64,000 bases of DNA from Microbacterium keratanolyticum (GTDB lineage: Bacteria > Actinomycetota > Actinomycetes > Actinomycetales > Microbacteriaceae), in NCBI RefSeq assembly GCF_016907255.1, contig NZ_JAFBBQ010000001.1, forward strand, positions 1,612,001 through 1,676,000, in the 5' to 3' direction. The notes under the pieces are model-generated. The model saw only the letters and a list, made by a program, of their open reading frames with translations. It had not been told where the DNA came from and made no database searches. Below, piece by piece: positions 10,673-15,242 of the stretch. The position numbers and the translations under genes were made by a program. How positions within the stretch are numbered: position 1 is the first letter of the stretch; each line of letters starts with the position of its first letter.

Positions 10673-10690
10673 TATCGTTGCGACACCATG
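10673..10690 (+). promoter_or_regulatory. Leaderless-type promoter (-10 TATCGT) of the amine oxidase gene
   Basis: TATCGT at 10673-10678 ends 9 bases before the ATG at 10688, and no ribosome-binding site lies between. Transcription would start at or within a base or two of the start codon. The same geometry recurs at many genes in this window. Confidence 0.6.
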
Positions 10691-12061
10691 AGGATGACGC
10701 GGCGCACTCTGCTGATCGGTGCCGGAGCCGGGTTCGTGGGGGTTCTTCTGGCCTCCTGCACACCCGAGCCGGTGCCGACGCCCACGCGTACCCCGTCGCC
10801 CTCCCCGCAGCCGACGGGCGACACTATCGTGCCGCTCGCTTTCGCGCGCAGCGCCTGGACGACCGATCCCTTCTCTCTCGGAGCCGCCAGCTTCACGCCC
10901 GTCGGCGTGCAGAAGAGCGTCCGGGGGAGCCTCGCGCAACCCGTCGTCGACCGGGTCTTCTTCGCCGGAGAGGCGACCGATGACGAGCAGTCGGGAACGC
11001 TCGAGGCTGCGCTCCGTTCAGGGCGCCGTGCCGCCGCAGAGGTGCGCGACGCGTCCGGACCGGGCGAGCGCATCGCGGTCATCGGCGCCGGGTTGGCCGG
11101 AGCCGCCGCGGTGTCGATTCTGGCCGGCACTGATCGTGAGGTGACCGTCTTCGAGGCGCGCGAGCGCGTCGGTGGCCGCATCATGTCTCACGTCGACGAG
11201 AAGGAGTGGCCGTTCCCGGCCCAGCTCGGCGGATGGCTGCACAGTGCGCAGGACGCCGAGTGGATCGAGCAGCTGAACTCCCTCGGCATCCGCAGCGCGG
11301 TCCTCGCCTCGTCGGCCTGGCGTTCGAGGGAAGGCGTCGTCGACCCCGTATCCACGGAGACGGTCGCGTCGGCGGTGGTCACAGCCCAGGAGCTGCCGAG
11401 CGACGTCTCGCTGGCTCAGGCGCTGTCCGACGCCGGGTCCGATCTGGAAGATCCGGCACTCGCGGCGCTCCTCGCGGCGGTCGCAGCGGCAGCGGGAGCG
11501 GATGCTGACGAGCTGTCGTCGTGGTTCCCGCCATCTCTTCCGGCAGCCGAGCCGATCGCGCCCCTCGCCGATCTCGACGCCGTCGTCCGCGATCTGCTCG
11601 GCGACGTGCGGGTCAGTCTGTCGTCACCGATCGCCCGCATCGTCTACGACGACGCAGGTGTGAGTCTGGCGATGGCGACGGGGGAGTCCCTGTCCTTCGA
11701 TCGGGTGATCGTCACCGCTCCCCTCGGCGTGCTGCAGAGCGAGGGCATCGAGTTCTCGCCCGCGCTGCCTTTTGGCCATCGCGGTGCGATCGCGGCGCTG
11801 GGCATGGGCCGCATCGAGACGGTGTGGTTGCGGTTCGAGGAGCCGCTTGTCGAGAGCGAGGCGGAGATCTGGCATGTCGTCGGCGGAGATGCTCTGATCC
11901 GCACGTGGATGAACCTGGCCCCGGCCACGGGGGAGGCTGTGCTCGTCGGCGTGGTCGGCGGCGCCGCTGCCGAAGAGTTCGCGGCTCTCGATGATGACGG
12001 CGTCCTTGAGGCGGCGATTGCCTCTCTCGCCCCGTTCATGCAGGCCGACGCACCCGGCTGA
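10688..12061 (+). CDS. Flavin amine oxidase-like lipoprotein with circularly permuted domain order
   Basis: FAD-dependent oxidase/dehydrogenase of the monoamine oxidase superfamily, 457 residues, exported. The N-terminus has a twin-Arg and lipoprotein signal (TRRTLLIGAGAGFVG, lipobox LASC with Cys24) and a Pro/Thr-rich linker to about 45. The segment normally found at the C-terminus of the family, W-TTDPFSLGAASF then VFFAGEATDDEQSGTLEAAL, comes first (about 57-118). It is followed by the normally N-terminal Rossmann loop IAVIGAGLAG (129-138) and FEARERVGGRI. The protein ends in the strand that normally precedes the DPFS block (NLAPATGEAVLVGVVGG, then EAAIASLAPFM). Everything needed for FAD binding is present, so activity is plausible. 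Its substrate is unknown. The 3' end overlaps the convergent Pr6Pr gene by 26 bases. Confidence 0.85.
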   Translation: MRMTRRTLLIGAGAGFVGVLLASCTPEPVPTPTRTPSPSPQPTGDTIVPLAFARSAWTTDPFSLGAASFTPVGVQKSVRGSLAQPVVDRVFFAGEATDDEQSGTLEAALRSGRRAAAEVRDASGPGERIAVIGAGLAGAAAVSILAGTDREVTVFEARERVGGRIMSHVDEKEWPFPAQLGGWLHSAQDAEWIEQLNSLGIRSAVLASSAWRSREGVVDPVSTETVASAVVTAQELPSDVSLAQALSDAGSDLEDPALAALLAAVAAAAGADADELSSWFPPSLPAAEPIAPLADLDAVVRDLLGDVRVSLSSPIARIVYDDAGVSLAMATGESLSFDRVIVTAPLGVLQSEGIEFSPALPFGHRGAIAALGMGRIETVWLRFEEPLVESEAEIWHVVGGDALIRTWMNLAPATGEAVLVGVVGGAAAEEFAALDDDGVLEAAIASLAPFMQADAPG

Positions 12062-12701
12062 TCACGACGAGGACCGTGGCGACGACGGCGAAGATCAGAA
12101 GTGCGAGGGCGCTCGTCAACGCGAACTCCGCAGGCCCGGAGACCTGTCGTGGGTCGAGGAAGTAGTACGGGTACCAACCGACGCGAGGCCCGCGCCACAG
12201 CGTGACGACGCCCCAAGCGATAGGGAATGTCAGGGACGAGGGGACCACCCACCACGGGACCCCGCGGTGTCCCGGTGTGAGGACCCAGGCGATGGCGGTG
12301 CACGCTGGCAGCCAGAAGTGCAGCAGATGATCGGACCAGGGGACGTCAACGCGGATGCCGCGGAGTCCTGCCTGCCAGACGATCAGCGCGAAGGCGAGCC
12401 CTGCTGTGATCGTCCACGTGAGCACGAGCGCGAGGGCTACGGTGAACCACCGCGGGTCGACCGGGCGGAGGAAGGCGAGAAGCGCCCCCAGGGTGAGCAC
12501 TGCGACCAGTGCGAGGTTCGACTGCACTGTCAGGTAGGCGAAGAAGTTGTCTCCCGCGATGCTGCGCGAGCTCAATCCCCAGAACAGTCGGTGGACGAGT
12601 GCGATCACGCAGACGACCGCGGCGGCCAGACGCAGCGCACCGAAGATCGTCCGAGCCTTCACAAGCCGTCTGCTCTCCTCTCTGCGCGGAGTCCGCGCCA
12701 T
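12036..12701 (-). CDS. Pr6Pr-type integral membrane protein
   Basis: 221-residue membrane protein with about six helices and the family phrases NFFAYLTVQSNLALVAV (second helix), WSDHLLHFWLPACTAI and GPRVGWYPYYFLDPRQVSG. It is found widely in Microbacteriaceae. No biochemical role is established. The start ATG at 12701 has a -10 box TAGACT (minus strand, 12713-12708) 6 bases upstream and no ribosome-binding site, so it is probably leaderless. Its 3' end overlaps the amine oxidase gene tail-to-tail by 26 bases. Confidence 0.8.
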   Translation of the reverse strand: MARTPRREESRRLVKARTIFGALRLAAAVVCVIALVHRLFWGLSSRSIAGDNFFAYLTVQSNLALVAVLTLGALLAFLRPVDPRWFTVALALVLTWTITAGLAFALIVWQAGLRGIRVDVPWSDHLLHFWLPACTAIAWVLTPGHRGVPWWVVPSSLTFPIAWGVVTLWRGPRVGWYPYYFLDPRQVSGPAEFALTSALALLIFAVVATVLVVISRVRRPA

Positions 12702-12832
12702 CCGGCGAGTCTACGGAGTTGCGACCTCAGGCGGGCTTCGCCGCGAACGCATTCTCGTCGATCGAGCCCCGCGAGCAGGGTGAGTGCGACAACCGCGACG
12801 GCGCGTTCTGCTGCGCAAGCAGGCGGGGCCTT

Positions 12833-12876
12833 GCATTTCGCGCTCCTGCCTGTGGACAACCGGTGGCACGAAATGC
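12833..12876. promoter_or_regulatory. 8-bp inverted repeat upstream of the gntR promoter
   Basis: GCATTTCG (12833-12840) and CGAAATGC (12869-12876) are exact complements with a 28-base spacer that includes CAACCGGT. The site sits just upstream of the gntR -10 box and may bind a second regulator or form a loop. The region 12702-12884 holds no convincing gene. Confidence 0.4.
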
Positions 12877-12884
12877 GGAGTGTG

Positions 12885-12906
12885 TATCCTGTCAACAGTT
12901 AACAGG
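12885..12906 (+). promoter_or_regulatory. gntR -10 box and operator-like site
   Basis: The -10 box TATCCT (12885-12890) is followed directly by GTCAACAGTTAACAGG. GTCAAC and GTTAAC are both parts of the perfect palindrome upstream of the transporter operon (13612-13635). GntR regulation of its own gene is inferred. Confidence 0.65.
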
Positions 12907-12918
12907 AGGGGTGTTCTC

Positions 12919-13587
12919 GTGAGCCAGGGTGTCAAGCGCGGAGAATCATTGGGCGCGCAGGTGGCGCGTGTGCTGCGCCAGCGCATTGTTCGCGGAGACC
13001 TCGCCCCCGGCGATCGCCTGACCGAGGAAGGGCTGGCTGAGGAGTTCGAGGTCAGCCGTGGTCCCGTGCGCGACGCGATCACCCAGCTCGCGTTCGAGAA
13101 GCTCATCGAGGTGCAGAAGCCCCGCGGCATCTACATCGTCGGCCTCACCGATGACGATGTCGACCAGCTCTACAGTCTGCGCTCGGCTCTGGAGCAGCTC
13201 GCGATGTCCCGCGCCATGCGCGTTGACGACGAGGATCGCTGGCAGGCGATGACGGGTGCGGTCGAGCGGATGGAGGAGGCGGCGGCATCCGGGAATCATG
13301 AGGCGTTCGCCGCAGCCGACCTCGATTTTCACTCCCAGATCTACGTGCTGGCGGACCATCCGCGCCTGGAGGGCGCGTGGAATCAGTACCTTCCGACGTT
13401 CACGGCACTGCTCGAGGTCACGATCAACCATGACCACGATCTGACGGAGTCCTCGCACGACCACGTGCTGCTCATGAACATCATGCGCGGCGGAGACGTC
13501 GGCGTCGCTGCTGACGTGCTGGCGGCTCACCTGGATGGCGCGCGGCACCGCATGATGCTGGAGCTCGCCGCGCGACGCGCGGAGTAG
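12919..13587 (+). CDS. GntR-family (FadR/FCD subfamily) transcriptional regulator
   Basis: 222-residue regulator. The winged helix-turn-helix is at about 8-75 (LRQRIVRGDLAPGDRLTEEG, then FEVSRGPVRDAITQL). An FCD ligand-binding domain follows, with the metal-binding pattern D-x3-H (DLDFHSQIY) and two later His in the C-terminal helices (SSHDHVLLMNIM, LAAHLDGARH). Start GTG 12919 with AGGAGG at 12904-12909; the upstream frame extension to 12784 is not conserved. It sits immediately before the transporter-catabolic operon it probably represses. The ligand is likely the transported compound or its product. Confidence 0.9.
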   Translation: MSQGVKRGESLGAQVARVLRQRIVRGDLAPGDRLTEEGLAEEFEVSRGPVRDAITQLAFEKLIEVQKPRGIYIVGLTDDDVDQLYSLRSALEQLAMSRAMRVDDEDRWQAMTGAVERMEEAAASGNHEAFAAADLDFHSQIYVLADHPRLEGAWNQYLPTFTALLEVTINHDHDLTESSHDHVLLMNIMRGGDVGVAADVLAAHLDGARHRMMLELAARRAE

Positions 13588-13593
13588 ACGGAA

Positions 13594-13644
13594 GTGTTGA
13601 CGGACACCCATGTGTTGACTGTTAACAGTCAACACTGCTACGGT
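13594..13644 (+). promoter_or_regulatory. Operator and promoter of the tripartite transporter operon
   Basis: A perfect 24-bp palindrome at 13612-13635 is centred on GTTAAC. It contains the -35 box TTGACT (13615-13620) and fills most of the 18-base spacer before the -10 box TACGGT (13639-13644). The half-site GTGTTGAC is repeated at 13594-13601, 18 bases upstream. A repressor bound here would occlude the promoter. Confidence 0.85.
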
Positions 13645-13688
13645 CGGTGAATCGACAACAGGGTCGATCCACCCACCAAGGAGCAAAG

Positions 13689-14660
13689 ATGCCCCGCATG
13701 CGCATCACCCGCGCGGCAGCCGCCATCGCCGCGATCACAGCAACCGCGCTCATCCTTTCTGCGTGCACGAAGGTCGAAGAGGCACCCGAAGAAGCCGCCC
13801 CGACCTTCCCCGAGAAGGACATCCGCCTCATCATCCAGGCGAACCCGGGCGGTGGCTCCGACCTCTCGTCCCGCGCGCTCGCCACGGAGCTCGAGAGCAT
13901 CCTCGGCGTGAGCGTCATTCCCGAGAACATGCCCGGCGCCGCTGGTGCGCTCGCCATGGAGTACGTCGGCTCGCAGGACCCTGATGGCTACGTCATCGGC
14001 TTCGGCCCCGTCGAGATCGCCATGCTCAACACCACGCAGGGCGCGAACGTCCTGCCGGAGAACTACGACCTGCTCGGCCAGATCATGCTCGCCCCTGGCG
14101 TCATCACGGTCGGCGCGAACAGCGGTATCGACAGCCTCGAGGCGCTCGTCGCCCAGGCGAAGGCTGGCGCGGTCACCGTCGCCAACTCGGGCGCAGGGAG
14201 CATCTGGGAGGCCGCGACCCTCGGCCTCGGCCAGGCCACCAAGGCGACCTTCACCCCCGTGGCTTACGACGGCGGCGCGACCGCGGTCAGCGCCGCAGCA
14301 TCGGGAGAGACCGTCGCGGCCGTCTCCGGCCTCGGTGAGGCTCTCGCGCAGGGCGAAGCCGTGCGCATCCTCGCGGTCATGCACGACGAGCGTCACCCGA
14401 ACGCGAAGGACGTGCCGACCGTCAAGGAAGAGATCGGCACCGAGGTGCTGTTCGGCGGCTGGGGCGGCATCTACTCCGCCAAGGGTCTGCCGGACGACGT
14501 GAAGGCCGTTCTCGAATCGGCCATCGAGGAGGCTGTCGCCAGCGACGGCTACCAGGACTTCCAGGCCTCCGCCGGAAACCTGGTCGTCTACCGCGACTCG
14601 GCGCAGTTCACCACCTTCGTGAACGAGCAGTTCGGCGTCTTCAAGGACCTGCTGGGCTAA
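13689..14660 (+). CDS. Tripartite tricarboxylate transporter substrate-binding lipoprotein (TctC/Bug family)
   Basis: Extracytoplasmic binding component of a sodium- or proton-driven TTT carrier. 323 residues: lipoprotein signal with lipobox LSAC (Cys near 23), then the Bug fold. The conserved phrases are FPEKDIRLIIQANPGGGSD and ENMPGAAGALAMEYV, and GAITV-type loop residues contact the ligand's carboxylate in the family. The ATG at 13689 follows AAGGAG. First gene of an operon that continues through tctB, tctA, an aldolase, two kinases and an isomerase. Bug ligands include citrate, aromatic acids and sugar acids, so the ligand here is open. Confidence 0.93.
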   Translation: MPRMRITRAAAAIAAITATALILSACTKVEEAPEEAAPTFPEKDIRLIIQANPGGGSDLSSRALATELESILGVSVIPENMPGAAGALAMEYVGSQDPDGYVIGFGPVEIAMLNTTQGANVLPENYDLLGQIMLAPGVITVGANSGIDSLEALVAQAKAGAVTVANSGAGSIWEAATLGLGQATKATFTPVAYDGGATAVSAAASGETVAAVSGLGEALAQGEAVRILAVMHDERHPNAKDVPTVKEEIGTEVLFGGWGGIYSAKGLPDDVKAVLESAIEEAVASDGYQDFQASAGNLVVYRDSAQFTTFVNEQFGVFKDLLG

Positions 14661-14666
14661 GACCCT

Positions 14667-14699
14667 GATGGGGTCGGGGCGTACAGCCCCGACCCCATC
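14667..14699 (+). other. 14-bp stem-loop between tctC and tctB
   Basis: Perfect 14-bp arms (14667-14680 and 14686-14699) with the loop GTACA, directly after the tctC stop and without a T-run. Such intercistronic stems usually protect the binding-protein mRNA and keep its level above that of the membrane subunits. Confidence 0.75.
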
Positions 14700-14714
14700 C
14701 CGGGAAGGAACACC

Positions 14715-15242
14715 ATGTCCACCGTCGAAGAGATCGAACAAGACGAGTACCAGGGTGCACCCGCATCGCGGACGCTGGAGATCGTCTTCGCCATCGTCGC
14801 CCTCGCGTTCGCCGCCGGGTACACCGTGCTCACGACACAGATCCCTCTGCGCCGTGAAGCCGCGCCCGGGCAGCTCGATGCCCGATTCTGGCCGATGATC
14901 ATCGGAATCACCGCCATCGTCGCCGCCATCGCCCTTCTGGCAATCGCCATCACCCGTCCCGCGCCCTCGCGCGAGGAGATCGAGCGGATCCAGCCTGGCG
15001 GCGTCCGCCGGGTCGCGATCACCCTCGCCATCGTCGCGGCCTTCATCGCCGCGTGGTCGCTGTCGACCGTCGTGCTCTTCGGCTACCGCTTCGAGGTCTT
15101 CCCCTTCGCATCCGCGCTGCTCATGGCCGCGCTCATGTTTGCCTACGGTCACCGCCGCTGGATCAGCCTCGTCATCTACTCCGTCTCCGTCGCGGCGTTC
15201 GTCTACGTCATCTTCGGAATGCTCCTGAGGATTCCCCTGTGA
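14715..15242 (+). CDS. Tripartite tricarboxylate transporter small membrane subunit (TctB)
   Basis: 175-residue membrane protein with four helices (near 22-42, 58-80, 99-120 and 128-170), matching the small subunit of TTT carriers. DARFWPMIIG before helix 2 is typical of the TctB domain. ATG 14715 follows GGAAGGAACACC. The stop overlaps the start of tctA (GTGA, 15239-15242), so the two are translationally coupled. Confidence 0.88.
   Translation: MSTVEEIEQDEYQGAPASRTLEIVFAIVALAFAAGYTVLTTQIPLRREAAPGQLDARFWPMIIGITAIVAAIALLAIAITRPAPSREEIERIQPGGVRRVAITLAIVAAFIAAWSLSTVVLFGYRFEVFPFASALLMAALMFAYGHRRWISLVIYSVSVAAFVYVIFGMLLRIPL

Follow-up and report, generated by a model that had tools for sequence, protein, structure and literature searches.

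Whether a flavin amine oxidase can truly carry the last block of its fold at the front of its sequence is the question raised by a gene in a 64,000-base stretch (the window, G000:C1:1612001-1676000) of the Microbacterium keratanolyticum genome, which is 1 contig of 3,066,861 bases. The flavin amine oxidase superfamily includes the drug targets MAO and LSD1, and its canonical members have the linear order of an N-terminal block, a body and a C-terminal block. The gene's product, P0001 (457 residues in an open frame), departs from this order in that the C block comes first. A twin-arginine (RR) start with a lipobox is followed by a Pro/Thr tether, the C-terminal block contacting flavin adenine dinucleotide (FAD), the dinucleotide motif IAVIGAGLAG (129-138) and the body, and the marks of the C-terminal block (W57, D60, FAGEAT, GT and SG) are all N-terminal of IAVIGAGLAG. 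The protein stops at the point where canonical flavin amine oxidases continue into the moved block. Eukaryotic glutathione synthetase is described as a natural circular permutation of an enzyme in a part of PMC2876114; there too the ends have moved and the fold is kept, but it is another fold. No report of a natural circular permutation in the flavin amine oxidase superfamily was found in PubMed Central, a collection outside of which most subscription journals fall.

A circularly permuted amine oxidase fold

P0001 belongs to the superfamily by homology, scoring 160.1 bits against Pfam PF01593 (cut-off 19.8). The match falls in three stretches, the best of which places residues 298-452 on positions 205-366 of the 443-position profile, and residues 128-167, 298-450 and 49-119 align to LSD2 (chain 4gu0) at 338, 535 and 703, in the chain order of the latter. 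With a canonical amine oxidase profile of 419 positions, made from 68 of the 79 canonical relatives described below with 11 long-branched ones omitted, positions 2-345 are covered by residues 129-455 (167.4 bits) and positions 347-418 by residues 48-119 (72.4 bits), in two matches without overlap. Every part of the fold occurs once in P0001, in rotated order. A preliminary description, made from the letters of the locus, had placed the C-terminal FAD block ahead of IAVIGAGLAG and the end of the protein at the canonical entry into that block. The former is borne out by the motif positions, the PF01593 stretches and the profile tiling, and the latter by a body that ends at profile position 345 and a block that starts at 347.

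The same arrangement was followed through 191 loci. A three-block test removed open reading frames (ORFs) that lacked one or more of the blocks or scored below 15 bits, and left 71 distinct permuted and 79 canonical proteins. When the sequences of the 71 permuted proteins are rotated, the best-domain score rises at the median from 202 to 283 bits and the profile cover from 337 to 417 positions; no rotation of P0001 with its tether kept spans both parts in a single match, the best single domain reaching 169 bits, as the tether then falls inside. The cut is common to all 71: their ends lie 1-16 residues past alignment position 450, and the joint, which runs from G112 to G133, has 19-25 residues.

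AlphaFold2, run on the 71 permuted proteins, gives a confident single-domain model that includes the moved block, with a predicted local distance difference test score (pLDDT) of 92.2 and a predicted template modelling score (pTM) of 0.87. Over residues 51-120, which take in most of the moved block, the pLDDT is 96-98 per ten-residue block; the Pro/Thr tether is modelled with low confidence. A structural search with the model, using aligners that follow chain order, shows that polyamine oxidase and LSD match it closely in fold, and the modelling supports an intact rearranged FAD-binding fold in P0001. The permuted order was not seen among solved structures in the best 60 of 102 and the best 60 of 118 PDB sequence matches (one best stretch per match, with alignments inspected for three and one) or in the best 50 entries of each structural search, and no NCBIfam model was over its cut-off among the matches listed for P0001, L031, L037, L039 and L057. 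LSD1/LSD2, spermine oxidase and plant polyamine oxidase, members of PF01593 that provide the best sequence and structure matches, share the fold and FAD motifs of P0001 but have the ordinary block order. The same is true of a paralogue in the same genome (G000:C1:1516095-1517387, PF01593 244.6 bits), which has the three blocks of P0001 and 29-38% identity to it in matched pieces but matches PF01593 in one stretch, 1-442. The two orders in one genome make the effects of order on folding, FAD loading and export testable.

Because a domain search gives PF01593 in pieces, permuted proteins are easily mistaken for frameshifts, and the three separate stretches of P0001 do resemble the broken pieces expected if an assembly, frameshift or annotation artefact made an ordinary amine oxidase look permuted. 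Against this, the genome is a single contig, the frame is open, and colinear copies occur in other phyla and in 14 of the 34 other genomes of the genus; moreover, the ratio of nonsynonymous to synonymous substitution (dN/dS) is 0.10-0.22 in 9/9 close pairs of family members, P0001 itself being too distant from its relatives to be included. With the same order in related genomes and in other phyla, the permuted proteins make up a genuine family that sequencing errors do not explain, as the preliminary description had held in denying a frameshift or assembly join, and an artefact, rejected on the recurrence of the order in independent genomes, has practically no chance of being the explanation. 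The dN/dS values indicate that purifying selection still acts on the permuted family. The circular permutation of the amine oxidase fold is confirmed as real and as conserved in the family of P0001, and is a new variation on a known fold family. The checks suggested at the outset, namely alignment to PF01593, structure prediction and a search of the Microbacteriaceae for the same order, are all in line with the permuted arrangement.

Distribution and origin of the permuted family

Within the genus, the permuted order is present in 15 of 35 genomes (this one and the 14 others), the copies being 47-67% identical to P0001 and that of L018 being listed in two pieces. In the Microbacteriaceae sample, 100 of 299 genomes, from 30 of 85 genera, match P0001 at an E value of 1e-25 or better, the block order having been checked on fetched loci and not in each of the 100 genomes. 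A scan of named genomes yielded at least 595 pattern matches, from which 80 loci were kept; among the matches listed, 20 of the 80 have the full permuted order, 7 from Microbacteriaceae and 13 under the labels Nitratireductor, Sphingomonadaceae, Hyphomicrobiales (2), Devosiaceae, Opitutaceae, Acidimicrobiaceae (2), Microthrix, Actinomycetota, and metagenome-assembled genomes (MAGs) of Bifidobacterium breve, Gammaproteobacteria and Alphaproteobacteria. In samples beyond the Microbacteriaceae the permuted order is uncommon. It is found in 3 of 337 genomes of the class of the Nitratireductor genome, centre included (one query protein, E 1e-30), and only in the centre itself among 258 genomes of the class of the gammaproteobacterial MAG. 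The phylum sample has full-length colinear matches in 8 of 296 genomes, 4 of them family members, and the class of the Acidimicrobiaceae genome, a sample that partly shares genomes with the former, has 7 in 198 by colinear cover alone, one being cut by a contig start.

Two of the loci are unusual. The permuted gene of L049 lies on an 8.7 kb contig labelled as a Bifidobacterium breve MAG, a doubtful species label that perhaps stems from a binning error. In L050 (6040-6675, a Rhodobacteraceae MAG), which the three-block test excluded, C and N blocks stand in permuted order and the frame ends after 212 residues, as in a broken copy or through a sequencing error.

In the permuted gene the FAD-contact strand, the GEAT loop and the final helix, which make up the last block of the canonical fold, come first, and a short link connects them to what was the N-terminal dinucleotide motif; the new ends lie in the loop that formerly led into this block. 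The arrangement presumably arose by tandem duplication or fusion, after which both outer parts were lost. No duplication intermediate, in the form of a doubled C or N block above 20 bits, was found in any ORF of the three-block scan, the only doubled hits being body hits split by insertions (L008, L028 and L035). In the amine oxidase fold the old ends sit side by side, which is a reason to consider several independent permutations, and free trees built on rotated sequences need 4 order changes (150 rows) and 5 (80 rows). In both trees, however, well-supported branches force just 1 change. In a clade test with 31 of the 71 permuted and 49 of the 79 canonical rows, the one-clade tree is 26.5 log units better than the result of the free search, and one origin of the permuted proteins is not rejected by the approximately unbiased test (p-AU 0.84). 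The identical cut in 71/71 and the twin-arginine start ahead of it (a twin-basic pair no more than 16 residues from the assigned start in 64/71 by a crude scan) also speak against repeated events, which we regard as improbable. One origin is the simplest reading, and is likely but not proven.

FAD site, export and the Pr6Pr neighbour

The FAD site of P0001 has the dinucleotide motif, Glu156 with GGR, and the GE block. G133, G135, G138, E156, R164 and G94 are kept in 71/71 permuted proteins and E95 in 70/71. Enzymes of the LSD, spermine oxidase and polyamine oxidase type have in addition a lysine facing the flavin N5 and an aromatic cage; both are visible in the alignment to LSD1 and P0001 lacks both, having Thr378 at the lysine position and Ala67 at the cage position, which belongs to the C block. 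Among the 19 permuted proteins from outside the Microbacteriaceae, 18 have K and one has R at the lysine position, and all 19 have an aromatic residue at the cage position (Y 17, W 2). Inside the family the lysine position is K in 6/52 and T in 35/52, and the cage position is aromatic in 8/52 (F 6, Y 2); Tyr or Phe accompanies the lysine in 5 of the 6 proteins that have it and occurs in 3 of the 46 that do not. Since most of the Microbacteriaceae branch lacks these residues, amine oxidase activity of P0001 is doubtful from the alignment. Hence the earlier view that all parts of the FAD site are kept stands for the FAD-binding motifs and fails at the N5 lysine and cage position, and the functional rearranged fold that it implied holds as an intact FAD-binding fold and is in doubt as a working oxidase. 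Distant permuted members with the catalytic lysine and aromatic cage are plausibly polyamine-type oxidases, mostly exported, and it is plausible that the Microbacteriaceae branch changed chemistry within the family, most of its members, including P0001, probably having lost the catalytic marks later. That these proteins then have the role of a flavin redox or binding partner is a possibility to which we give slightly less than even chances.

Export is suggested by motifs. Of the 52 Microbacteriaceae rows, 51 have an aligned RR and 51 a lipobox Cys; among the 19 others the counts are 13 and 4. Some of the missing RR or Cys reflect starts that were assigned too late (such as L126 and L039). TatC, of the twin-arginine translocation (Tat) system, is encoded in the genome. 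The signal peptide and Pro/Thr linker noted ahead of the moved block in the preliminary description are supported by alignment of the copies. P0001 would be a Tat-exported lipoprotein: it would fold in the cytosol with FAD enclosed, cross the membrane in the folded state, receive a lipid at Cys24 and hang by its Pro/Thr tether from the outer face of the membrane.

The gene that converges on P0001 encodes a member of the Pr6Pr family (NF038065, 90 bits against a cut-off of 30). By tblastn, a Pr6Pr relative lies downstream in 50 of the 71 permuted loci, and in 49 of these it is on the opposite strand; none of the 60 loci of the named-genome scan that lack a full permuted gene has one. When all 100 matching Microbacteriaceae genomes are compared with the best 99 Pr6Pr places, Pr6Pr is convergent and adjacent in 93 (median 89 bases between matches), and 95 of these 99 places fall in genomes with the permuted gene. 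Of the 7 remaining genomes, G232, G262 and G101 have the gene near contig ends and the other four do not. Five of the six lysine-keeping proteins of the family have a Pr6Pr neighbour (for the sixth, L130, the flank spans 32 bases), so the pairing is either older than the lysine loss or kept beside it. The 50 neighbour copies have near-invariant Thr58 and His128 (49/50 each), WYPY and Asp183, and Thr58 and His128 may resemble residues of FAR-17a/AIG1-type hydrolases. The neighbour of P0001 has no Pfam match up to E 10 and no credible PDB match (best E 0.37), and the name Pr6Pr was not found in any paper in PubMed Central. The tail-to-tail pairing, which lysine-keeping members show as well, suggests a membrane module of two genes with a later drift in chemistry, in which the Microbacteriaceae permuted protein would work with the Pr6Pr membrane protein.

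Two other explanations bear on function. The permutation may be right and P0001 still an ordinary exported amine oxidase that tolerates Thr378 and Ala67 and relies on other residues for its chemistry, as the invariant FAD positions, the purifying selection, the close resemblance of the model to polyamine oxidase and LSD, and the lysine kept in 6/52 family members (5 with a Tyr/Phe cage) would allow; the near-universal lysine and cage of the distant proteins, neither of which most of the Microbacteriaceae branch retains, leave this a minority view, at about one chance in three. We would give similar weight to the Pr6Pr adjacency being inherited synteny with no functional link, given that convergent genes are not co-transcribed and that the pairing is confined to Microbacteriaceae among the loci examined; however, the pairing is kept in 93/100 genomes, whereas hspR, the upstream gene here, is near only 7/71 loci (in 68/71 the upstream flank is 1.4 kb or longer), and the best Pr6Pr places fall almost entirely in genomes with the permuted gene. 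Besides the free trees, three observations weigh against a single-origin, exported, Pr6Pr-linked family: Pr6Pr relatives occur in 200/299 family genomes (E 1e-15), 2x as many as the permuted gene; the distant permuted genes have no Pr6Pr neighbour; and a scan found no signal sequence in the distant members L057 and L069. Among 18 proteins encoded near the distant genes of L031, L032, L034, L037 and L038 (crude gene calls), no shared partner was found beside the gene. All told, it is highly probable that P0001 is a member of an old permuted amine oxidase family that is exported, linked to Pr6Pr and later changed in its chemistry in the Microbacteriaceae. A fuller scheme is tentative, at about one chance in three: a single ancient permutation would have given a mostly exported LSD/polyamine oxidase branch, which in Microbacteriaceae became the extracellular half of a Pr6Pr module, keeping FAD and mostly dropping oxidase chemistry for redox or sensing. 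The Pr6Pr pairing is a strong lead, and the loss of catalytic marks within the family, with a membrane-protein gene fixed next door, points to a function not described so far.

Layout of the locus

Features of the P0001 locus, numbered from the first base of the window
Feature	Position	Strand	Basis
TANNNT element (TATCGT), 9 bases before the P0001 ATG	10673..10678	+	same-genus comparison
P0001, circularly permuted flavin amine oxidase family protein, 457 aa	10688..12061	+	ORF, homology, profile, model
Putative twin-arginine signal and lipobox with Cys24, residues 1-24	10688..10759	+	aligned motifs
Pro/Thr-rich tether, residues 25-47	10760..10828	+	alignment; low model confidence
Moved block, residues 48-119, C-terminal in canonical members	10829..11044	+	profile positions 347-418 of 419, 72.4 bits
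Ala67, aromatic cage position	10886..10888	+	alignment of permuted proteins
Former N-terminal dinucleotide motif and body, residues 129-455	11072..12052	+	canonical profile
Thr378, position of the lysine facing flavin N5	11819..11821	+	alignment of permuted proteins
Pr6Pr family membrane protein, convergent, overlaps the P0001 3' end	12036..12701	-	NF038065

The TANNNT element is present 8-9 bases upstream of the ATG in 15/15 same-genus copies (the window copy and 14 other loci), and we take it to resemble the -10 box of a leaderless transcript. Beyond the Pr6Pr gene, positions 12784-15242 of the window hold a GntR/FCD regulator and then further genes, which we presume to resemble TctC-/TctB-type tricarboxylate transporter parts. 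In the same-genus copies L008, L018, L028 and L035, Asp/Ala-rich or other variable insertions occur in the same loop, before the WHVV strand.
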